Shown here piece after piece: positions 1 through 58,121 of a DNA stretch of 64,000 bases. A program made the position numbers and the translations under genes. The stretch is from NCBI GenBank assembly GCA_903902705.1, contig CAIUVX010000063.1, positions 1-64,000 of the forward strand. Direction: 5' to 3'. The notes under the pieces were generated by a model. It saw only the letters and a list, made by a program, of their open reading frames with translations. It did not search any database and was not told the DNA's origin. Each line of letters opens with the position of its first letter. Position 1 is the stretch's first letter. Origin of the DNA: an uncultured Methylococcales bacterium (GTDB lineage: Bacteria; Pseudomonadota; Gammaproteobacteria; Methylococcales; Methylomonadaceae).

Positions 1-1
1 A

Positions 2-1825
2 AAAGATCCAGCTAACTGGGCAACTTGGGGTGGCGATTACGCCGGCACTCGTTATAGTTCACTTAACGAAATCAATGCTGACAACGTTAAAAATCTACAA
101 CCAGCATGGACTTTCTCTACAGGCGTATTACGTGGTCATGAAGGTGGTCCATTAGTTGTTGATGGTGTTATCTACATTCACACACCATTCCCTAACACTG
201 TATACGCTCTTGATCAAAAAACTCAGTCAGTTATCTGGGAATTTACTCCTACTCAAGATGCTGACGTTACTATCCCAGTTATGTGCTGCGATACAGTTAA
301 CCGTGGCTTAGCTTACGGTGACGGCAAAATTTTCTTACAACAATCTAACACTGTTTTAACTGCATTAGATGCAAAAACGGGTAAAAGAGTGTGGAGCGTT
401 CAAAACGGTGATCCTAAATTAGGTATGACCAACACTAACGCACCTTTAGTTGTTAAAGATACCGTTTTAACAGGTATTTCTGGTGGTGAGTTTGGTGTGC
501 GTGGTTTCTTAGCCGCTTATGACATCAACACTGGCAAATTGGCATGGAAAGGTTATAGCATCGGTCCCGATAAAGACACGTTAATCAATGCTGATAAAAC
601 CACGACTTGGGAAGACGGCAAAGTTGCTAAAGTTGGCGAAAATTCAAGTATCAAAACGTGGGAAGGTGACCAATGGAAAATTGGTGGCGGTACTACTTGG
701 GGCTGGACTAGCTACGATTCTAAATTGAATCTGATTTACTACGGATCAGGCAACCCATCAACTTGGAACCCAGTACAACGTCCTGGTGACAACAAATGGT
801 CTATGTCATTGTGGGCGCGTGATGCGGACACAGGTGAAGTTAAATGGGTTTACCAAATGACTCCACATGACGAATGGGACTTTGACGGTATCAACGAAAC
901 TGTGTTAGTTGACCAAGAAGTGAAAGGCAAGCTGCACAAAACTATCGTGCATTTCGACCGTAACGGTTTTGGCTATACACTGGATCGTGAAACAGGTGAA
1001 TTGTTAGTTGCTGAAAAATTCGACAAATCAGTCAACTGGGCATCTCATGTTGATATGAAATCAGGTCGTCCAGCGGTTGTTGCTAAATACTCAACTGAAC
1101 AAAATGGCGAAGATGTTAAATCTGAAGGCGTATGTCCAGCTGCGTTAGGTTCTAAAAACCAACAACCCGTGTCTTACTCTCCACAAACTGGCTTGTTCTA
1201 CATCTCAGGCAACCACTTATGTATGAACTACGAACCTTTCCAAGTTTCATACACAGCAGGTCAACCTTATGTCGGCGCAACGCTAGACATGATGCCAGCT
1301 GGTGCAGACGTTATCACAGGCAAACCAGACGGTACACACAACTTAGGTCAGTTCACCGCGTTTGATGCTAAAACAGGCAAAATTGCTTGGTCTAATAAAG
1401 AACCGTTCTCTGTCTGGTCAGGTTCAGTGGCAACTGCTGGTGGCATCGTATTCTACGGCACATTAGAAGGTTACTTGAAAGCAGTTGATGCAAAAACAGG
1501 TAAAGAATTGTACAAATTCAAAACCCCATCAGGCATCATCGGTAACGTTAATACTTGGAGCTACGAAGGCAAACAATATGTTGGCGTATTGTCAGGTATT
1601 GGCGGCTGGGCAGGTATCGGTATCGCAACTGATTTCGGCAAACAGTTAGAAGAAGCAGAAGCGAAAGCGGCAGCAGAAACTGATCCTGTGAAAAAAGCAG
1701 AGCTACAAAAAATTGCTCTGAAAATCTCACAAGAAGGTTTAGGTGCTAACGGCGCGTATGCAAGCTTGGGTTCATTCACCAAACAAGGTGGCGTGTTCAC
1801 AGTATTTGCATTGCCTAATAACTAA
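2..1825 (+). CDS. xoxF: XoxF-type lanthanide-dependent methanol dehydrogenase, 5' end outside window
   Basis: Periplasmic PQQ enzyme that oxidises methanol to formaldehyde (or formate) and passes electrons to a cytochrome c. The reading frame is open from base 2, well upstream of the ORF-track start at 281. About 608 residues are visible, so only the signal peptide and a few mature residues are missing. Family marks seen: the adjacent Cys-Cys pair ([10 protein letters not shown]), repeated propeller W-motifs (AxDxxTGK..W), a GNPSTWN motif, and the catalytic region [10 protein letters not shown]. The second Asp of D-F-D, two residues after the catalytic Asp, is the known lanthanide ligand of XoxF; calcium MxaF enzymes have Ala there. 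A Lys/Ala/Glu-rich stretch ([20 protein letters not shown]) lies near the C-terminus and looks long for the family. A strong terminator follows, and no xoxJ or xoxG lies downstream. Confidence 0.95.
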
Positions 1826-1853
1826 TTAATCTAGTTTTTTAGATTGCTAGTTG

Positions 1854-1890
1854 AAGCCTTGGTTGAGCGATTGACCAAGGCTTTTTTTTA
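1854..1890 (+). terminator. Rho-independent terminator of xoxF
   Basis: A perfect 10-bp stem (AAGCCTTGGT / ACCAAGGCTT) with a 10-base loop runs into a run of T residues, 28 bp after the xoxF stop codon. It should end xoxF transcription before the lipoprotein gene. Confidence 0.93.
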
Positions 1891-1908
1891 ACTCTATTGC
1901 GAGAAAAA

Positions 1909-2559
1909 ATGAGAAGATATAAATATCAATTAGTTACAGTTATTGGTTTTACAACCATGCTTTTATTTGGCTGTGCATCCCAACCACCCTTATCAGTAGG
2001 TCAGCTTACTGAATATAACGCGGTTTCTATTAACAAAGATGTCTCTGTACCGAGCATTGCTTTTTATCATGGTCAAGTCCAATCATTTGCTGGTGTATTT
2101 GGAGTTTTAGGAGCGTTAGCAACAATGGATGATGCTAAAAGTAATGGAATACAACTCGCTGAATTTATGAAAAAAGAAAACATCAACGTTGGTGAAATTT
2201 TTATCAAAGATTTTGAGAAACAAATCATCGAAACAAAAACATTTAAAGTTGTTCAACCTAACTCTGAAAAAGCGATATTTAAAACAAAAATAGAACTTTT
2301 TGGTCTCAATCAAGGTAATGGACTTACCAGCACACTCTATCCTCAATTGACTGTTTCTGCTCAATTGACAAAACTAGATGGAACTATTTTATGGAAAGGA
2401 CAGCAGTACATTACTCCGATAAACAGTGAAAACAATATTGGTGATACGCTTGAAAATTTTTACAAAGAGCCGAACAAACTTAGACTATCTTTTGAAAAGA
2501 CATCTCATATTCTGGCAAAATTTCTGATTGAAGAAATAATTGGTAGCAAAACGCAATAA
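1909..2559 (+). CDS. Hypothetical outer-membrane-type lipoprotein
   Basis: About 216 residues. The N-terminus is a lipoprotein signal (MRRYKYQLVTVIGFTTMLLFGCAS), with lipobox LFGC placing the lipidated Cys near residue 22. The ATG at 1909 is preferred to the TTG at 1897 used by the ORF track, because it puts the basic residues directly before the hydrophobic core. The mature part has alternating hydrophobic strands and a TILWKGQQYI segment, resembling small periplasm-facing lipoproteins of unknown role. I do not recognise a specific family. It sits after the xoxF terminator, so it probably has its own promoter. The gene is AT-rich compared with xoxF. Confidence 0.8.
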   Translation: MRRYKYQLVTVIGFTTMLLFGCASQPPLSVGQLTEYNAVSINKDVSVPSIAFYHGQVQSFAGVFGVLGALATMDDAKSNGIQLAEFMKKENINVGEIFIKDFEKQIIETKTFKVVQPNSEKAIFKTKIELFGLNQGNGLTSTLYPQLTVSAQLTKLDGTILWKGQQYITPINSENNIGDTLENFYKEPNKLRLSFEKTSHILAKFLIEEIIGSKTQ

Positions 2560-2575
2560 GCCATGTAACACGATA

Positions 2576-2760
2576 AGATGGGCATAGGATGTGCTGAGGT
2601 ACGAAGCGCATCGTTCGAGAAACTTGACACGAATGATGCGCCTCCTATCGTCGGCACATCCTATGGCACTAGCGCGTAGGATGGCTAGAGCGATAGCGAA
2701 ACCCATCACTAACCCTTGAAAATATCTCGTTCCCACACTCTGGAGTTTGAGAACGAGAAA
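2576..2760. repeat. Composite of interspersed palindromic repeats
   Basis: The whole gap is made of repeat units. CATAGGATGTGC (2583-2594) pairs with GCACATCCTATG (2654-2665), with GAAGCGCATC/GATGCGCCTC inside; a half copy recurs near 40496. Next comes a copy of the GTAGGATGG-CTAGAGCG-AAACCCATC repeat. Last is TCTCGTTC...GAACGAGA (2725-2758), a hairpin of the widespread 'CGTTCCCACGCTC' type. No gene is seen here. Confidence 0.8.
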
Positions 2761-46336: not shown

Positions 46337-47029
46337 TCACTTCACTGCCATTAAGTCAAAGACATGAAGGTGGGGTGCAAGCTCTGCTTGCAATTGCAGG
46401 CAAAGCCTGCACTCCAGTAGCACTACTTCTTTATTCGCAATCCGCACACAACATTTTAAATCCTGCTTAAAGACCAACTGCCTCCATATTTAAAATATTT
46501 CAGCAAGTAAATATCTCACAAAACTTCCTTCAAAAACGTCAGTATTTTGTATATTTAAATATAGAAATCCATTAATTAAAGTAATTTATTTTAATTATAC
46601 TTATATTTCAATATGTTATAAATTTTTCTGGCTTTAAAAAAACTCCCAAAATGAATGATCTTGCCATTGTTGCTATACGATGATGTTGATAAACTATAAA
46701 TCATCCCAAGACTGATTCTCATTAAGAATTAAGTGGGAGTTAGCAAGGTTGGAATATTTTAAAACTTAGCTGTGTATTAAATTTCAGATAAGTTAAAGCT
46801 GTACCTAAATAGCTTCCATCAATTTTGATAGAGCTTTGAATACAAACAAAACCATAATTACAACCGTCAGCAAGAGAGTTTTTATAAGATGACTGATGGG
46901 ATCAACGACGAACATAATAATAATTTTTCATCGTCACCTGTGTGCCGAGATTATTAATATTACTTAAGTTTTAACCTAATAAACCGTCAGATATTATTAA
47001 TCTTTGACAAAAATGATGAGGTGACTCTA
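46337..47029. other. 693-bp non-coding region upstream of the secreted-protein pair
   Basis: The first 100 bases hold a repeat, TGCAAGCTCTGCTTGCA then TGCAGGCAAAGCCTGCA, beside the TCACTGCCATTAAGT sequence seen at 6964. The other 550 bases are AT-rich with no open frame, and should hold the promoter and a long leader for the gene at 47030. GAGGTGA at 47018-47024 is that gene's ribosome binding site. Confidence 0.6.
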
Positions 47030-49480
47030 ATGAAAACCAAACATACATTCCTTGCGACAGCAAGTTTTCCTCTTTCTAACAAAAACCGCCTACGGCAGTT
47101 TATTCGGCTTGCGTTAGTTGGTTCAGTGATGGTAAGCAACATGGCATCAGCGGTACTGCAAGATCATGGTCCATCTGATCCAACATTAACATGGCCAATG
47201 TGGTATCGCGATACCAACGGTCTTGCACTGGGCAAATGTCAATCGACATCCAATTTCTGTTTTCCACTGATTTCAGAACCTGCTGGTTTTGCAGGCAATA
47301 TAGGTCCTGAAATATTTTACAACCTTGTTGAATTTAAAGGCGCAGTCGGTACACCTACAGCAACTGGTTCTGATTTTGAATACCGCTACCTAGGTGCATT
47401 AGAAGCCTCTTACATTCCAGGTCCAAACCCTACACGCGGTCAAGAAACCGTGTTTGCGCGTATTCGTATTACATTCAACTTCAATGATCCCAACAAAAAT
47501 GGTGATTATGTCGTCACCCATCCATTCGGCGTTAATACGTTCCCGAATGTGCAAGCAACGGACAAAACCAATTTAATTGGTGCGCAAGCAGCTAACTTCT
47601 TTACTGTGGATGTTCCATTAGCTGTTTCTGGAAACTTTGGTTTAGCACTGGGCGGTCCAGTTGGTCCATTTATTCAATGGGATACCGATCAAGCTACACT
47701 GGTATCAGCAGCGGGAGAGCAATTCGTTGGTGACCCAACTGTTGCCCATACATTCACAGGCAGTCCATTCGGTACTAACTTCCTGACAATTCAAGGTCCT
47801 CCTGGGTCTAACTTAGATGGATTAGAACCAGTAGACCCAGTAACTGGTAAAGCTGCCGCATCAATTCACGATACACTTCACTTTGACTTAGGTAACGTGT
47901 TAGGTCAAAAATGGACGCAACCCATCGCTGAGCCTTTAAAAATTGATGCAGCGACGTTGACTCGTACAACTGGCGCAACAGGTATTAACGGTATAGATAT
48001 TTGGGCAACCTCATCACCTAACCAACGTGTGATTGCGACTGCACCAGGTATGCCAAGTTTGCAATTAATTGCAGATGGCACAACGCCAGGCAAATACCAT
48101 GGTCATATCGAATATCCATCTGCTCAAGCAGTTCCAGCACAAGTTACTATTACTAACCTCACCAGTAACCCTGTGAACAGTATATCCGCAGGACTTGAAG
48201 ATGATGTTCAAATTACTCGTGCAACTTTCGGTACTACCTCTCGCCAACTCACAGTAGTAGCGAGTTCAACTGACCATGTCGTTCCACCTGCGCTGACAGT
48301 ACAAGGCGTACCAGGTGTTGCTGCGGGCATAATGTCAACAGCAGCGTGTGCGGGCGTTACTCCAGCCGTCGCTGACCCTGTTAATGATTTTTGCTACACA
48401 ACTTTATTACCAGCCGCGATAGAACAACCAGAAAGCATCTCGGTCGTTTCAACTGAACTGGGTCATCATGTACAGCATGTAATCAGTGGTCCAGATACTC
48501 AGGTAAATACACCTGCACCTGCAACACCAACTGTTGTCACTGCTGGACTAAACGGAGCGGGCAATGGTATTGCGGTAAGCTGGACAGATGCTTCGACTAA
48601 CGAAACCACCTTTACTGTATTCCGTTCAGGCGATGGTGGTGCAACATTTGCGCAAGTTGGCACACCCGTAACGAGTACAACGTCAGCAACAACAGGTGCT
48701 TCTTACACATTTAACGATACGACAGCTGGTTTAGTAGTCGGTGGTACTTATAGTTACTATGTAGTTGCTAACAAAGCCACAGCGGCGTTCTCATCTGCGA
48801 ACTCTAATATCGTGTCTTACACAATTGCGGCTCCCGTGGTTAATGCACCAAGCACACCAACATTTACTGTTGCTGGAACGACAGCTACTGTTCGTTGGAT
48901 AGATAACTCAACCAATGAAAACAGCTTTACTGTAACGCGTACTGATACTAATGCGAGTACTGGTGCTGTGGTGACAACGCCATCAACGGTAGCTAGTACA
49001 ACTGGGGCTGCGACTGGAGGAGCAAAAACAACTACGTTAACATTAGTATTGGGGCATACTTATACTTTCTCAGTAGTTGCTAACAAAACCTCGGCATTTG
49101 CGGCTACGTCAGCTTCATCAGCGACATCTGCGCTATTATCGTATATCAGACCAGCAACACCAACGCTTCCTACGGCGGTTCTAAGTAGAATTGGTGTTAC
49201 TAACAATGATCAGGCTGTTTTAACTTGGGTAGATAACGCGACCAATGAAACAAGTTATACCGTTGCATACACAGCTGTAGGTGGAACTACTGGTTCAGTT
49301 AACCTACCTGCAAATTCAACAGGTACGCCAACGCCAACGAATATAACGACTCTGGCTCGTGGTGCTGCAACTTTAGCAGCAAACAAGCGACCAGTGTATT
49401 CGTTCACTATTACCGCAACCGATAGTGTAACTGGCTTGGTATCTACTGCAGCAACTGTACCTAATAAAACCGCACAATAG
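47030..49480 (+). CDS. Secreted modular protein with fibronectin type III repeats, paralogue 1
   Basis: 816 residues from ATG 47030 (GAGGTGA upstream). A long signal region ends near LALVGSVMVSNMASA. Residues about 40-480 form a domain shared with the next gene: DHGPSDPTLTWPMWYRDTNG, LGKCQSTSNFCFP, FNFNDPNKNGDYVVTHPFGV. Residues about 500-810 hold three FnIII-type units, each with a W-x-D-x-(S/A)TNE pattern (SWTDASTNETTFTVFRSGDG, RWIDNSTNENSFTVTRTDTN, TWVDNATNETSYTVAYTAVG). Low Cys, Thr-rich, no sorting motif seen. Probably exported and possibly surface-associated; function unknown. Confidence 0.85.
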   Translation: MKTKHTFLATASFPLSNKNRLRQFIRLALVGSVMVSNMASAVLQDHGPSDPTLTWPMWYRDTNGLALGKCQSTSNFCFPLISEPAGFAGNIGPEIFYNLVEFKGAVGTPTATGSDFEYRYLGALEASYIPGPNPTRGQETVFARIRITFNFNDPNKNGDYVVTHPFGVNTFPNVQATDKTNLIGAQAANFFTVDVPLAVSGNFGLALGGPVGPFIQWDTDQATLVSAAGEQFVGDPTVAHTFTGSPFGTNFLTIQGPPGSNLDGLEPVDPVTGKAAASIHDTLHFDLGNVLGQKWTQPIAEPLKIDAATLTRTTGATGINGIDIWATSSPNQRVIATAPGMPSLQLIADGTTPGKYHGHIEYPSAQAVPAQVTITNLTSNPVNSISAGLEDDVQITRATFGTTSRQLTVVASSTDHVVPPALTVQGVPGVAAGIMSTAACAGVTPAVADPVNDFCYTTLLPAAIEQPESISVVSTELGHHVQHVISGPDTQVNTPAPATPTVVTAGLNGAGNGIAVSWTDASTNETTFTVFRSGDGGATFAQVGTPVTSTTSATTGASYTFNDTTAGLVVGGTYSYYVVANKATAAFSSANSNIVSYTIAAPVVNAPSTPTFTVAGTTATVRWIDNSTNENSFTVTRTDTNASTGAVVTTPSTVASTTGAATGGAKTTTLTLVLGHTYTFSVVANKTSAFAATSASSATSALLSYIRPATPTLPTAVLSRIGVTNNDQAVLTWVDNATNETSYTVAYTAVGGTTGSVNLPANSTGTPTPTNITTLARGAATLAANKRPVYSFTITATDSVTGLVSTAATVPNKTAQ

Positions 49481-49490
49481 GCTAAGGCTA

Positions 49491-49516
49491 GGCTGGTGTG
49501 ATGTATCACACCAGCC
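49491..49516. terminator. Hairpin between the tandem secreted-protein genes
   Basis: GGCTGGTGTGA / TCACACCAGCC, 11-bp perfect stem with loop TGTA, ten bases after the first gene's stop. No T-run follows, so it may act as an mRNA-stabilising or attenuating hairpin rather than a full terminator. Confidence 0.65.
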
Positions 49517-49604
49517 ATCAAGAGCAAATAAACAGTTAATCCAGTTTGACTCCATCGATTTTTATCTTTGGTGTACTGGTAAATGAAATAACGAGGTTAT
49601 CCCA

Positions 49605-51983
49605 ATGAAAAATGAACACAGCTTATTTGTGACAACAGATTCTTGCACAAATGTAGTAAACAACGGCTCTGCCCCACACTCAGGCAAACGCCACTTACGC
49701 AACTTAATTAAACTGGCACTGGTCGGCTCAGTATTAAGCAGTGCATCAGCATTTGCGATATTACTAGACCATGGTCCAAGTAATCCAATCGTCACCTATC
49801 CAGACTGGTATAGAGACACCAATGGTCTTGCTATTGGCTTGTGTCAATCGACCACTGCGTTCTGTTTCCCACTGGTTCCAGATGCCGCTGGTTTTCCAGG
49901 CAACGTTGGCCCTGAAATATTTTACAACATGGTTGAGTTCAAGGGTACAGCGGGTACAGCGACTGCGACAAATACAGATTTTGAATACCGTTATATGGGT
50001 GCATTAGAAGCATCCTATATCCCAGGTCCAGTGCCTACGCATGGCACAGAAGCTGTATTTGCGCGGATTCGTATCACCTTTAACTTTAATGACATCAACA
50101 AAAACGGGACTTATGTAGTCACGCATCCATTCGGTGTGCATACCTTTCCTAACGTACAAGCGACCACTAAAACCAATTTAATTGGTGCGCAAGCGGCTAA
50201 CTTCTTCACTGTGGATGTTCCATTAGGCACGCCTATGGATTTTGACACCTCACTGACGGGTCCAATCGGTCCTTTTATTCAGTGGGATACTGGATTACCG
50301 CTGATATCGGGTACCGAGCAATTCGTGGGTGACCCAACTGTTCTCCATACCTTCAAAGGCAGTCCGTTTAATACTAACTTCCTGAGAATTCAAGGTCCAG
50401 TCGGTTCTAAACTGGATGGCGTGAACGACTTTATTCAGGTTAATCTGGGTAGTGTTCTGGGTCAAAAATGGACGCAACCCATTCCGCAACCGTTAAGAGT
50501 TGATTCAGCGTATTTTACCCGTTCAAATGCGGTGGGTAACGCTGTTGATGTCTGGGCAACCTCATCAGCTAACCAAACCTTAGTTGCAACAGGTAATGGT
50601 ATACCCGCACCAGGTATCGCCTTAAAACCCGATGGCGTAATTCCTGGTAAATATCATGGTCGTGTGGTGTATTCTTCGGCGTTACCTGTTCCACCAGAAA
50701 TTACTGTCACTGACAGTACCAGTGTTCCTGTAATCAGCGTTTTAGCACCTGTTAAAGATGTCGTTGAAATTGTGCAAGCAAGTTTTAACACCAACACCCG
50801 CAAGATTACTGTTGAAGCAAGATCAGATGATGAGATTACTAATCCTCAATTGAGTGTACAAGGTGTACCTGGTGTACCAACTGCCGCAACCGTTGCGCCA
50901 GCTATTACAGGTGTACTGACAGCCGCACAATGTACAGCAGCGGGTATTACCGTCGCAAATCCAGTGAATGTCTGCTTCACTTACACGTTGCCACCAGCAA
51001 TAGAAGCACCCGAAAAAGTATCCGTTGTTTCAGCTAAAGCGGGTGGTCATGCTGATGAGTATTTACAAATTGCTGGTACACCTGAAAACGCAGCTAACCC
51101 ACCTGTTGCAACTGATATTCCTGCACCAGGCTTTAGCGTGACTTCAAGCGGCGCAACTGATCTAATCCCTAATCTGCCATTGGATGCGCAAATCATCCAA
51201 CAACCAGTAAACGGTATCGTTAGTTTGCTGAACGGGCAATGGATTTTCACGGCTAATGCAGGAATTGCAGCAGGTGGAATTACCGATGCGTTTAAATTTG
51301 TAACTCAAGCGGCGAATAGCGCACCTGTCTCTAACGTTGCTACGGGTAATCTGTCAATCGGCTTTACATCAACTGCGCCTAATGTTGCTGCTGACCAATT
51401 TGCTGGCAGAACCACTGTTGCGCGTTCATTCAATGTATTGGCTAATGACAAAGCAGCGTCTACTAATGCACTTGATCAAACCGCCCCAGGTACTGTCGTA
51501 ATTGTTACGCCTCCAACCAAAGGCAATGCAACTGCCAATGCCAATGGTACAATTAGTTACACTGCAACATCTGGCTCGGCAGCGGGTATTGTAGACACCT
51601 TTACTTACACCGTGAAAAACGCGGCGGGTAAAACGTCTACACCTGCAACAGTGACCGTCACTAACTTTAATGCCAATGAAGCGGTTGCGATTATTAAATC
51701 AGATTACGTTGTTAATCGTGGAGTGTGGACTGTTACGGGTACCACAACCTGGTTTGCACCAAGCCTGACTACTACGATAGCGACTTGCTGGACTGGTAGC
51801 GAGTTGACACCAACCACAGCCACTACCATCGGTACTGCAACAGTTGATGTGACAGGTAAGTTCCAAATCATCCCTGTAGGCACTGCACCAATCCCAACAG
51901 CGGCTGGTCCATTGCGTTGCATAACGTCTAATAATGGTACTAATGGCGGATTTCCTGCTGCTGGAACGATTGGGATTAAATAG
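49605..51983 (+). CDS. Secreted modular protein with cadherin/Big-like end, paralogue 2
   Basis: 792 residues, CGAGG before the ATG. A 25-residue polar lead precedes a signal core (LIKLALVGSVLSSASAFA). The shared domain (DHGPSNPIVTYPDWYRDTNG, LCQSTTAFCFPLVPDAAGFP, FNFNDINKNGTYVVTHPFGV) is closely alike to the upstream protein. The C-terminal part is different: a tandem Ig/cadherin-like unit, NVLANDKAASTNALDQTAPG, GNATANANGTISYTATSGSA, DTFTYTVKNAAGKTSTPATV. So the two genes keep one N-terminal domain and swap the C-terminal modules. Function unknown. Confidence 0.85.
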   Translation: MKNEHSLFVTTDSCTNVVNNGSAPHSGKRHLRNLIKLALVGSVLSSASAFAILLDHGPSNPIVTYPDWYRDTNGLAIGLCQSTTAFCFPLVPDAAGFPGNVGPEIFYNMVEFKGTAGTATATNTDFEYRYMGALEASYIPGPVPTHGTEAVFARIRITFNFNDINKNGTYVVTHPFGVHTFPNVQATTKTNLIGAQAANFFTVDVPLGTPMDFDTSLTGPIGPFIQWDTGLPLISGTEQFVGDPTVLHTFKGSPFNTNFLRIQGPVGSKLDGVNDFIQVNLGSVLGQKWTQPIPQPLRVDSAYFTRSNAVGNAVDVWATSSANQTLVATGNGIPAPGIALKPDGVIPGKYHGRVVYSSALPVPPEITVTDSTSVPVISVLAPVKDVVEIVQASFNTNTRKITVEARSDDEITNPQLSVQGVPGVPTAATVAPAITGVLTAAQCTAAGITVANPVNVCFTYTLPPAIEAPEKVSVVSAKAGGHADEYLQIAGTPENAANPPVATDIPAPGFSVTSSGATDLIPNLPLDAQIIQQPVNGIVSLLNGQWIFTANAGIAAGGITDAFKFVTQAANSAPVSNVATGNLSIGFTSTAPNVAADQFAGRTTVARSFNVLANDKAASTNALDQTAPGTVVIVTPPTKGNATANANGTISYTATSGSAAGIVDTFTYTVKNAAGKTSTPATVTVTNFNANEAVAIIKSDYVVNRGVWTVTGTTTWFAPSLTTTIATCWTGSELTPTTATTIGTATVDVTGKFQIIPVGTAPIPTAAGPLRCITSNNGTNGGFPAAGTIGIK

Positions 51984-55451: not shown

Positions 55452-55859
55452 ATGAACCAAGACAGCATTAAGCTGATAGAAGACTATTATGCGGCGTTCA
55501 ACGGCGGCGATATGGATGCTTTTTTAAGTTTGCTCACCGATGATGTAATTCATGATATTAACCAAGGTAGACGCGAAATAGGCAAAGAAGCCTTCACTCA
55601 GTTTATGGCGTGTATGAACCATAACTATAAAGAACAATTGGTTGATATGGCGATTATGGCAACCGCTGATGGTAATCGTGCTGCAGCTGAATTTGTAGTA
55701 TTGGGTGAATACTTAAGAACTGATGAGGGTTTACCCGAAGCCCAAGGACAGAAATATAAACTACCCGCAGGTGCATTTTTTGATATTCGTGACGGTAAAG
55801 TGGCGCGTATTACTAATTATTACAACCTGCAAGATTGGATTGCTCAGGTTGGCGGTTAA
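55452..55859 (+). CDS. SnoaL/NTF2-like ketosteroid-isomerase-fold protein
   Basis: 135 residues, AAGGAG seven bases before the ATG. The fold is seen in IKLIEDYYAAFNGGDMDAFL, SLLTDDVIHDINQGRREIGK and PAGAFFDIRDGKVARITNYY. Small-molecule-binding or isomerase-like proteins of this family have many roles and no reaction can be named. It opens a possible operon with the MxaD-like genes, 90 bases downstream. TATAAA preceded at 17 bases by TTTAGG is a weak promoter candidate near 55390-55415. Confidence 0.85.
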   Translation: MNQDSIKLIEDYYAAFNGGDMDAFLSLLTDDVIHDINQGRREIGKEAFTQFMACMNHNYKEQLVDMAIMATADGNRAAAEFVVLGEYLRTDEGLPEAQGQKYKLPAGAFFDIRDGKVARITNYYNLQDWIAQVGG

Positions 55860-55948
55860 GGAGTAAAGCCGCTTTAGCTGTTTAGTTAAAGCTGTTGGAC
55901 TACAACGAAATGTTAGAACTATCTACTTACATTCTTTGAGGAATGAAT

Positions 55949-56512
55949 ATGAAAAAAAATTATTTTGGTCTATCAGCATTATTGTTTCTTTTTACTGCTG
56001 TGGCTAATGCGCATGGTCCAGTTCGACAAGATACCGATGAAACCATCACTATTAACGCTCCTGCGGAAAAAGTCTGGGGCATTATTAAAAATTACGGTGA
56101 TATGTCGTGGTTGCCTGCCATTAAAAGCACCGATGTTAAAGGCGGCAATGAAAAAGGCGCGACTCGTGTATTGACGCTACAAGACGGCGGCACAATTACC
56201 GAAGAATTGAAAAAATACGATGACGCTAAAATGTCGTATGCTTATAAAATCACTGAAATGAGTACCGCAAAAACCATTACTCATGCAGGCGTAGAAGAAA
56301 AAGTGCCTGTTGTGCCTGTCGATAACTACTCGGCAACTATTACCGTAGAAGCACAAGGCGCGACGACTAACGTACATTGGAAAGCAGGTTATTATCGCGC
56401 TTATACCAACAACAACCCACCTGATGAAATGAACGAAGCTGCTGCTAATGCTGCTATTAAAGGTATTTTTACCTCAGGTTTGAATAATCTGAAAGCCTTA
56501 GCTGAAAAATAA
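55949..56512 (+). CDS. MxaD-like periplasmic SRPBCC protein, copy 1
   Basis: 187 residues. The second ATG (55949) is chosen, because GAGGA ends at 55942 and leaves no spacing for the first ATG at 55943. Signal peptide MKKNYFGLSALLFLFTAVANA, then HGPVRQDTDETITINAPAEK VWGIIKNYGDMSWLPAIKST, ending in YYRAYTNNNPPDEMNEAAAN. This pattern (HGP after the signal, INAPAxKVW, GGNxKG, YRAYTNNNPP) matches MxaD, a helper in methanol oxidation between methanol dehydrogenase and its cytochrome. A second copy follows 81 bases on. Confidence 0.85.
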   Translation: MKKNYFGLSALLFLFTAVANAHGPVRQDTDETITINAPAEKVWGIIKNYGDMSWLPAIKSTDVKGGNEKGATRVLTLQDGGTITEELKKYDDAKMSYAYKITEMSTAKTITHAGVEEKVPVVPVDNYSATITVEAQGATTNVHWKAGYYRAYTNNNPPDEMNEAAANAAIKGIFTSGLNNLKALAEK

Positions 56513-56593
56513 CTTCGTAACCCAACACATCGCCCGTAAATTCTGGGTTACGCTGTCGCTAACCCAGCCCACAATATTCAAGAGACATCCATT

Positions 56594-57160
56594 ATGAAAA
56601 AAATACTTTTACCTTTAGCCGCTGCGTTATTGTGCTTCACTGGTTTAGCAAACGCACATGGTCCCGTGCGTCAAGACACTGATGAAAGTATCATCATTAA
56701 TGCACCCGCAGAGAAAGTCTGGGGTCTGATTAAAGATTTTGGTGATATTGCCGCATGGCATTCTGAGGTTTTTACTTCACCCGCCGAAGGCGGTAATCTG
56801 AAAGGCGGCAAACGCATATTGACTTTAAAAGACGGCAACACCGTCAACGAAGAACTGAAAAAATATGACGAAGCCAATATGTCTTACTCATACAAAATTA
56901 CCGATATGAGTATCGTAAAAACCATCAATTATGCGGGCGTAGATGAAAAAGTCCCCGCTATTCCTGTCGCTAATTTTTCTGCCACTATCACTGTTGCCCC
57001 TAAAGGCGATAACAGCGAAGTGACATGGAAAGCAGGTTATTACCGTGCTTACACCAACAACAATCCACCTGAAGAAATGAACGAAGCCACTGCTAATGCA
57101 GCGGTTAAATCATTTGTGATGACTGGTTTAATTGATCTGAAAAAAATCGCTGAGCAATAA
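56594..57160 (+). CDS. MxaD-like periplasmic SRPBCC protein, copy 2
   Basis: 188 residues, clearly a tandem duplicate of the gene before: HGPVRQDTDESIIINAPAEK VWGLIKDFGDIAAWHSEVFT, then KAGYYRAYTNNNPPEEMNEA. Signal peptide MKKILLPLAAALLCFTGLANA. The region after KVW differs most (SWLPAIKS against IAAWHSEVF), and AWH is closer to the standard MxaD. The spacer between the copies carries a TGGGTTACGCTGTCGCTAACCCA repeat. The next gene starts four bases after this stop, so they are co-transcribed. Confidence 0.87.
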   Translation: MKKILLPLAAALLCFTGLANAHGPVRQDTDESIIINAPAEKVWGLIKDFGDIAAWHSEVFTSPAEGGNLKGGKRILTLKDGNTVNEELKKYDEANMSYSYKITDMSIVKTINYAGVDEKVPAIPVANFSATITVAPKGDNSEVTWKAGYYRAYTNNNPPEEMNEATANAAVKSFVMTGLIDLKKIAEQ

Positions 57161-57164
57161 ATCT

Positions 57165-58121
57165 ATGTTGGCATTGAACACCCGTGCGGCAGCAATTGCT
57201 ATTGCTGCTTTATTATCGACACCACTGGCTGCCGCACCGTTTGCTTATATCAGCAATCAATTGGCAGACAGCGTGTCTGTTATTGATCTCGCTGACAATA
57301 AAGTGGTCAATACCATTGCTGTGAGTGGCAAACCCGCAGGCGTTGCCGTCTCGCCTAATGGTGATAAAGTCTATATCAGCACACCAGAAGCCCACGGTTT
57401 TGCAGTCATAGATGCCAGAAAACAGCAACTAATAACCACTGTTAAAACCAGCGAGGGGGCGTTAGGAATCACCGTTGCCCCCGATAGTAAACGTATTTAT
57501 GTTGCCGATTGGTTTATCAACACAGTGTCAGTACTGGACGCGGATAGCTTAGAAATTATTAAAACCATCACGGTAGGTCAATCACCCTCAGGGCTAGTGG
57601 TTAGTCCTGATAATCACTGGCTGTATGTTGCTAATCGCCTCGATAACTCAGTATCACAGATAGACACGCACACCCTGACTGTCAAGAAAACCACGCCTGT
57701 CGGTCAGCATCCATTTGGTCTAGCGATAGATTCACGCGGCGAAAAAGTGTATGCGGTTAATGTCGAAAGCGATAATGTCACCGTATTAGAAACACCACAG
57801 ATGAAAGCTATTGCCACTATTAAAGTGGGCGCGTTGCCTTATGCAGCTACCTTGGCTTTAAATGACAGTCGTTTATTCGTTACTAATATGGATGATGGTA
57901 CAGTCTCCGTCATTGATACCGAAAGCTTAACCACTATCGGCTTGATTGAAGTGGGTGAAAAACCCGAAGGTATCGGCACGCACTTGGATGATCGTCATAT
58001 TTATGTCGCCAACTGGTTTGATAAAAATGTCTCTTTGTTAGATGCTAAAACTTTGCAAGTCAAAGAAACAATTACCACTGCTCGCGGTAGTCGAGCCTTT
58101 GGGCAGTTTATTGGTAAATAG
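57165..58121 (+). CDS. Periplasmic YVTN beta-propeller protein
   Basis: 318 residues with signal peptide (AAIAIAALLSTPLAAAPFAY). Seven blades of about 42 residues carry the YVTN pattern (VADWFINTVSVLDADSLEII, VANRLDNSVSQIDTHTLTVK, VANWFDKNVSLLDAKTLQVK). Propellers of this kind occur beside PQQ dehydrogenases in several methylotrophs. Co-transcription with two MxaD-like genes supports a role near methanol oxidation or an associated redox step, but direct evidence is missing. No haem motif is present. Confidence 0.85.
   Translation: MLALNTRAAAIAIAALLSTPLAAAPFAYISNQLADSVSVIDLADNKVVNTIAVSGKPAGVAVSPNGDKVYISTPEAHGFAVIDARKQQLITTVKTSEGALGITVAPDSKRIYVADWFINTVSVLDADSLEIIKTITVGQSPSGLVVSPDNHWLYVANRLDNSVSQIDTHTLTVKKTTPVGQHPFGLAIDSRGEKVYAVNVESDNVTVLETPQMKAIATIKVGALPYAATLALNDSRLFVTNMDDGTVSVIDTESLTTIGLIEVGEKPEGIGTHLDDRHIYVANWFDKNVSLLDAKTLQVKETITTARGSRAFGQFIGK

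Follow-up and report, generated by a model that had tools for sequence, protein, structure and literature searches.

A conserved SRPBCC-propeller gene pair of Methylococcales as a probable periplasmic accessory module of the lanthanide-dependent methanol dehydrogenase XoxF

Introduction

MxaD is a 17 kDa periplasmic protein of the mxa operon of Methylobacterium/Methylorubrum. It promotes the interaction of the methanol dehydrogenase MxaFI with cytochrome cL, as cited in PMC7391723 and PMC2577659. In M. extorquens, the mxaD gene is adjoined by mxaE (META1p4527) (PMC6414531). XoxF is a very widespread, lanthanide-dependent methanol dehydrogenase; apart from XoxG and XoxJ, its accessory proteins are little understood. 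M. extorquens AM1 also carries a stand-alone 'MxaD homolog', META1p1771, which is listed among the genes required only with lanthanum; its deletion lowered growth on methanol with lanthanum to 0.11 per hour, against 0.16 per hour in the wild type (PMC7391723). A further group of described proteins is formed by LutB and PedA2, the YVTN propellers of lanthanide/alcohol ABC systems (PMC9291206, PMC6839425). Our literature search returned no paper that joined xoxF with an SRPBCC protein, and those that joined xoxF with a YVTN protein concerned LutB or PedA2.

We analysed a 64,000-nucleotide stretch of DNA (the window) from an uncultured Methylococcales bacterium, in which two MxaD-like genes stand in tandem ahead of a gene for a beta-propeller.

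Results

The open reading frames were where the earlier note had placed them, all on the + strand: a SnoaL-like gene, two tandem, co-directional MxaD-like genes and a propeller gene. The first (55452..55859) encodes a SnoaL-like, ketosteroid-isomerase-related protein, which matched TIGR02096 at 133.1 bits (cut-off 97.1). It is followed by D1 (55943..56512, 189 aa; PF10604, 4.9e-29) and its tandem paralogue D2 (56594..57160, 188 aa; PF10604, 5.8e-26). Both match the Pfam family far above its cut-off, and an NCBIfam profile search returned no model naming D1 or D2. A signal peptide ends just before the predicted mature start, HGPVRQ, at 56012 in D1 and at 56657 in D2, and the AHGP motif was kept in 99% of 116 SRPBCC homologues. 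The fourth gene (57165..58121, 318 aa; TIGR02276, 210 bits) begins 4 bp after the D2 stop and encodes a seven-bladed YVTN beta-propeller, also with a predicted export signal.

The AlphaFold2 model of D1 (pLDDT 90) had a START/Bet v 1-like fold, and that of the propeller (pLDDT 92) a seven-bladed architecture. The nearest solved structure to the propeller was 1l0q, the YVTN propeller of an archaeal surface-layer protein (TM 0.90, 38% identity), with which no functional relation is known. All four genes were under strong purifying selection within the genus of the window (dN/dS 0.03-0.12), which indicates that neither D1 nor D2 is decaying. A promoter and terminator scan gave nothing beyond chance level. 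Between D1 and D2, at 56544-56566, lies a near-perfect palindrome, TGGGTTACGCTGTCGCTAACCCA; we counted 7 copies of this motif in the genome and none in the reversed control, so that it resembles a REP-like repeat inside the tandem. Another duplication was seen elsewhere in the window, at 47021-51983, where two large exported proteins in tandem (819 and 792 aa) have closely similar N-terminal halves.

The genome that contains the window is 3.97 Mb in size and 99.8% complete, and the public records nearest to it are MAGs of Methylococcales and of Crenothrix. The window opens with a lanthanide-type XoxF methanol dehydrogenase (1..1825, + strand; WDxD motif, EWDFDG). This was the only methanol dehydrogenase found in the genome and is the presumed client of the gene pair. 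We found no MxaF in the whole 3.97 Mb, so that the description of the locus as far from any mxaF was, if anything, understated. The xoxF gene lies 54 kb from the pair, and their common presence in the window is therefore, by itself, no evidence of association. Neither xoxJ nor xoxG follows xoxF directly (window 1-2600); a MoxJ-like gene (107 bits, below the cut-off) is present on another contig, C105. A 99% identical xoxF stub lies at the end of contig C134 and probably arose as a fragment during assembly.

The duplicated SRPBCC gene had been taken as the characteristic unit of the locus; this did not hold. What is conserved is the pair of one SRPBCC gene and one propeller gene, which is near-universal in Methylococcales. 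The propeller directly followed the SRPBCC gene on the same strand in 79 of 80 Methylococcales loci, typically after a gap of about 10 bp, and the lone exception ended at a contig edge. Outside Methylococcales, a propeller was present beside nearly every strong SRPBCC match with an annotated locus. The exceptions were G404, an mxaF-linked type with the propeller on the opposite strand, and G423, which ends at a contig edge; the matches in G421 and G444, which have no propeller, were not counted, as the tree placed them in another branch.

A wider conserved operon was not supported. When the neighbours of the 80 loci were clustered, only a gene for a 96-aa protein (43 of 80) and scattered housekeeping genes recurred beyond the pair. 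Membership of the SnoaL-like gene is doubtful, since it was found solely at the loci of the window's genus. GH5/ABC genes, upstream of the pair in the window, also occur near it in a number of relatives; there they stand on its other side, and the arrangement is not a general one, which points to synteny rather than function.

We examined the distribution of the pair in 398 Pseudomonadota genomes, calling XoxF where an enzyme was at least 58% identical to that of the window. The pair was present in 28 of the 43 genomes with XoxF and in 1 of the 355 without it (p = 5e-31, a value that is too small, since related genomes are not independent samples). The earlier note had held that its proposal would fall if homologues were common in non-methylotrophs with no PQQ dehydrogenase; these counts did not refute it. 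Leaving out Methylococcales, we obtained 26 of 41 against 1 of 355. One genome, G281, had the pair together with MxaF and no XoxF was found in it. The absence of the pair from 15 of the 43 XoxF genomes indicates that it is not obligatory for XoxF.

The pair also lay within 30 kb of xoxF (1.2 to 27 kb) in 12 of the 28 genomes, belonging to six families, where about 1 was expected (p about 2e-10, assuming a genome size of 4.7 Mb and 1.5 XoxF copies, and likewise too small because relatedness is ignored). It was unlinked to xoxF in Methylococcales, in family f63 and in some others. Among Methylococcales genomes at least 80% complete, the SRPBCC gene of the pair was present in 50 of 52 with XoxF and lacking from all six without it; these six are not independent, because they belong to two families. 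Where XoxF occurred without MxaF, 24 of 26 Methylococcales genomes had the SRPBCC gene.

These distributions bear on the view that the proteins are general envelope components with no role in C1 metabolism, tied to XoxF by shared methylotroph ancestry alone. The situation in Methylococcales would suit it, as the pair there lies far from xoxF and has no generally conserved neighbour besides itself. However, the linkage to xoxF in six families, the tracking of XoxF by presence and absence within Methylococcales, and the parallel split of MxaF-linked and XoxF-linked clades (see below) make this view very improbable.

The window copies had been called MxaD-like. As far as the SRPBCC fold, the export signal and the HGP mature N terminus are concerned, the name was apt; the proteins nevertheless belong to a sister paralogue clade and not to MxaD proper. 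Methylococcaceae genomes with mxaF encode a second protein, beginning HGPTPQ, whose gene is next to mxaFJG and to that of a response regulator. In a tree of 116 proteins, this mxaF-linked type was separated from the window copies with support of 100/100 by a branch of 1.9. Together with sequences from other proteobacteria, the mxaF-linked proteins formed one clade of 17 (SH-aLRT 100), with the window copies outside it. The propellers of the mxaF-linked and XoxF-linked pairs were also largely separate in their tree, and the window propeller fell in the XoxF-side group.

The MxaD type was present in 29 of 29 genomes with MxaF in the order sample, and in one further genome (G031, 76% complete) with no detected methanol dehydrogenase; in the Pseudomonadota sample, MxaD-type matches lay 7-8.5 kb from mxaF. 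Within mxa clusters, MxaD was followed by a propeller in 7 of 10 of one examined set and in two of the Methylococcaceae clusters that we inspected. Since mxaE stands beside mxaD in M. extorquens, the propeller that follows MxaD in mxa clusters, that of G088 among them, is by its position MxaE. A fragment of the MxaD type with an internal stop (G010:C35:290-553) was seen in a relative with XoxF and without MxaF, and resembles a relic of a lost mxa system.

MxaD and the window copies are about 35-42% identical and share the residues H24, G25, P26, W45, W56, R75, Y151, R152, N157 and P159. They differ at position 28, where the window copies have R and MxaD has P, and the XoxF-side SRPBCC proteins of Methylococcaceae have an extra segment around residues 105-117, unlike MxaD. 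The window SRPBCC gene is moreover duplicated and stands in a genome with XoxF only, whereas MxaD is linked to mxaF. We also considered whether the N-terminal histidine, H24, might begin a copper 'His brace'. It is conserved, but it is the one histidine that both types have in common, and the idea was unsupported.

In G088, the genes run xoxF, pqq genes, an SRPBCC gene with its propeller and then LutB, an order that matches that of genes 1740 to 1779 of AM1 (PMC7391723). As the two orders agree, META1p1771 would be the SRPBCC gene of the pair. We infer from this gene order, and not from its sequence, that META1p1771 belongs to the XoxF-associated SRPBCC-propeller family. The corresponding gene of G088 is paired with a propeller and, unlike the window, has no tandem copy. 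The co-occurrence, the xoxF linkage in six families and the published lanthanum-only phenotype of a syntenic homologue support a connection with methanol oxidation, and specifically with XoxF.

The same neighbourhoods raise the question of whether the pair serves lanthanide uptake or delivery, as in the lut/ped systems, rather than the dehydrogenase itself. The pair adjoins genes for a LutB-type propeller and an ABC transporter in G088 and in the genomes of family f70, where the order is xoxF, xoxG/J-like genes, the pair and then the LutB-type propeller with the ABC genes. LutB and PedA2 are themselves YVTN propellers (PMC9291206, PMC6839425), and the window propeller is like them in being an exported YVTN propeller found in lanthanide-related clusters. 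Against TIGR03866, however, it scored 168.7 bits and its orthologues 132-178, all below the cut-off of 287.3, while the LutB of G088 scored 522. The window propeller and its orthologues also fell in a clade different from LutB; on this score and the tree, we ruled out that the window propeller is LutB or PedA2. The genome has a separate LutB-like/ABC cluster on another contig, and MxaD-MxaE, the sister pair, belongs to operons for the calcium enzyme, which has no need of lanthanide. A role in lanthanide uptake is therefore less likely, and we regard it as improbable.

The separate cluster (contig C171, L214 2750-6630) consists of a LutB-like propeller, an ABC ATPase and a permease, and is of the lanthanide transport type. 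In G023, mxaD and its propeller have a further propeller nearby (L128 2390-3343), which is encoded on the opposite strand and groups with the LutB type.

D1 and D2 are 63% identical. The variable loop of D1 (residues 54-66, MSWLPAIKSTDVK; 56102..56140, + strand) has the common XoxF-associated form W[LH]P, and that of D2 (IAAWHSEVFTSPAE; 56747..56788, + strand) is one residue longer and has lost the otherwise conserved proline. In its length, the D2 loop equals that of MxaD (ISTWHPDV), and the D1 loop does not. The two differ at 13 of 14 aligned loop positions, against 47 of 153 (31%) in the rest of the mature protein (Fisher p = 7e-6). The loop is thus a hot spot of divergence, as had been noticed. 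The claim that the copies differ mostly in this loop was overstated, since 47 of the 60 differences in the mature proteins lie outside it.

Among the Methylococcales loci compared, the duplication and the SnoaL-like neighbour occurred only in the window's genus. All eight genomes searched from this genus had the duplication, one of them ending at a contig edge. In the 116-protein tree, D1 and D2 formed separate clades within the Methylococcaceae group, both with support of 100/100, which places the doubling before the radiation of the genus. Independent doublings of the SRPBCC gene were seen in G197 and G226, and in the second copy of G197, too, the proline of the loop is gone (WVDNV for WIPVV), as in D2 (WHSEV).

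The confinement of the duplication to one genus would fit a neutral amplification in which D2 has no function of its own. Its presence in all eight genomes (the one truncated locus included), a dN/dS of about 0.1 for D2 and the concentration of the divergence in one loop argue against this, and we consider it quite improbable. Separate partners for D1 and D2, which the earlier note had suggested, are plausible, since this loop has also changed in the independent duplicate of G197. A more specific reading is that D1 and D2 are two alternative XoxF adaptors, with one propeller that would couple XoxF to two electron acceptors or serve two PQQ enzymes. Under it, D1 would retain the XoxF-type loop and D2 would carry a loop of MxaD length (I-x-x-W-H, as in MxaD) without the proline. 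We put this forward as a tentative and rather doubtful proposal.

Discussion

Taken together, the evidence suggests that the D1/D2-propeller locus probably encodes a periplasmic accessory module dedicated to the lanthanide-dependent XoxF, the XoxF-side paralogue of MxaD-MxaE. The helper role in methanol oxidation that had been claimed for the cluster is supported, and the biochemical step is one that we infer. By analogy with the reported action of MxaD on MxaFI and cytochrome cL, the module would act on XoxF in the periplasm. The SRPBCC protein may bind XoxF or its cytochrome partner via the variable loop, and the propeller may hold or present the SRPBCC protein. In this way the module would help active XoxF to assemble, or electrons to pass to XoxG. 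In the window's genus, the SRPBCC gene is doubled and one copy has an altered loop, presumably adding a second contact or partner.

The pair may instead serve another step within this accessory role, as a maturation chaperone for PQQ or the apo-enzyme, which we think less likely but take as a serious rival. PQQ would then be carried in the SRPBCC pocket, or the pocket would close the cavity of apo-XoxF, and the propeller would be a scaffold for handling the cofactor, as NirF is when heme d1 matures. To this extent the maturation role overlaps with the explanation that we prefer. SRPBCC/START folds bind hydrophobic ligands, and D1 was modelled with that fold. NirF and NirN were among the fold matches of the propeller, but these matches are generic and include hundreds of propellers. 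The calcium and lanthanide methanol dehydrogenase systems both have an SRPBCC protein and a propeller, and their common need is PQQ and assembly; many genomes whose PQQ enzymes are only 40-45% identical, however, lack the pair, and the published data on MxaD indicate the step between the dehydrogenase and its cytochrome.

META1p1771 has stood as an isolated transposon hit, and MxaD-MxaE as an obscure pair of the mxa operon. A module dedicated to XoxF would unite them in a single paralogous system, divided into a calcium and a lanthanide branch, and would name the propeller as its missing second member. Gamma-proteobacterial methanotrophs carry the pair almost universally, among them those that have XoxF only. 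If the reading of D1 and D2 as alternative adaptors is true, the doubling in G197 with the same change in the loop would point to a recurrent way of diversifying methanol oxidation. With matched pairs in the calcium and lanthanide branches, the old question of the function of MxaD becomes testable.
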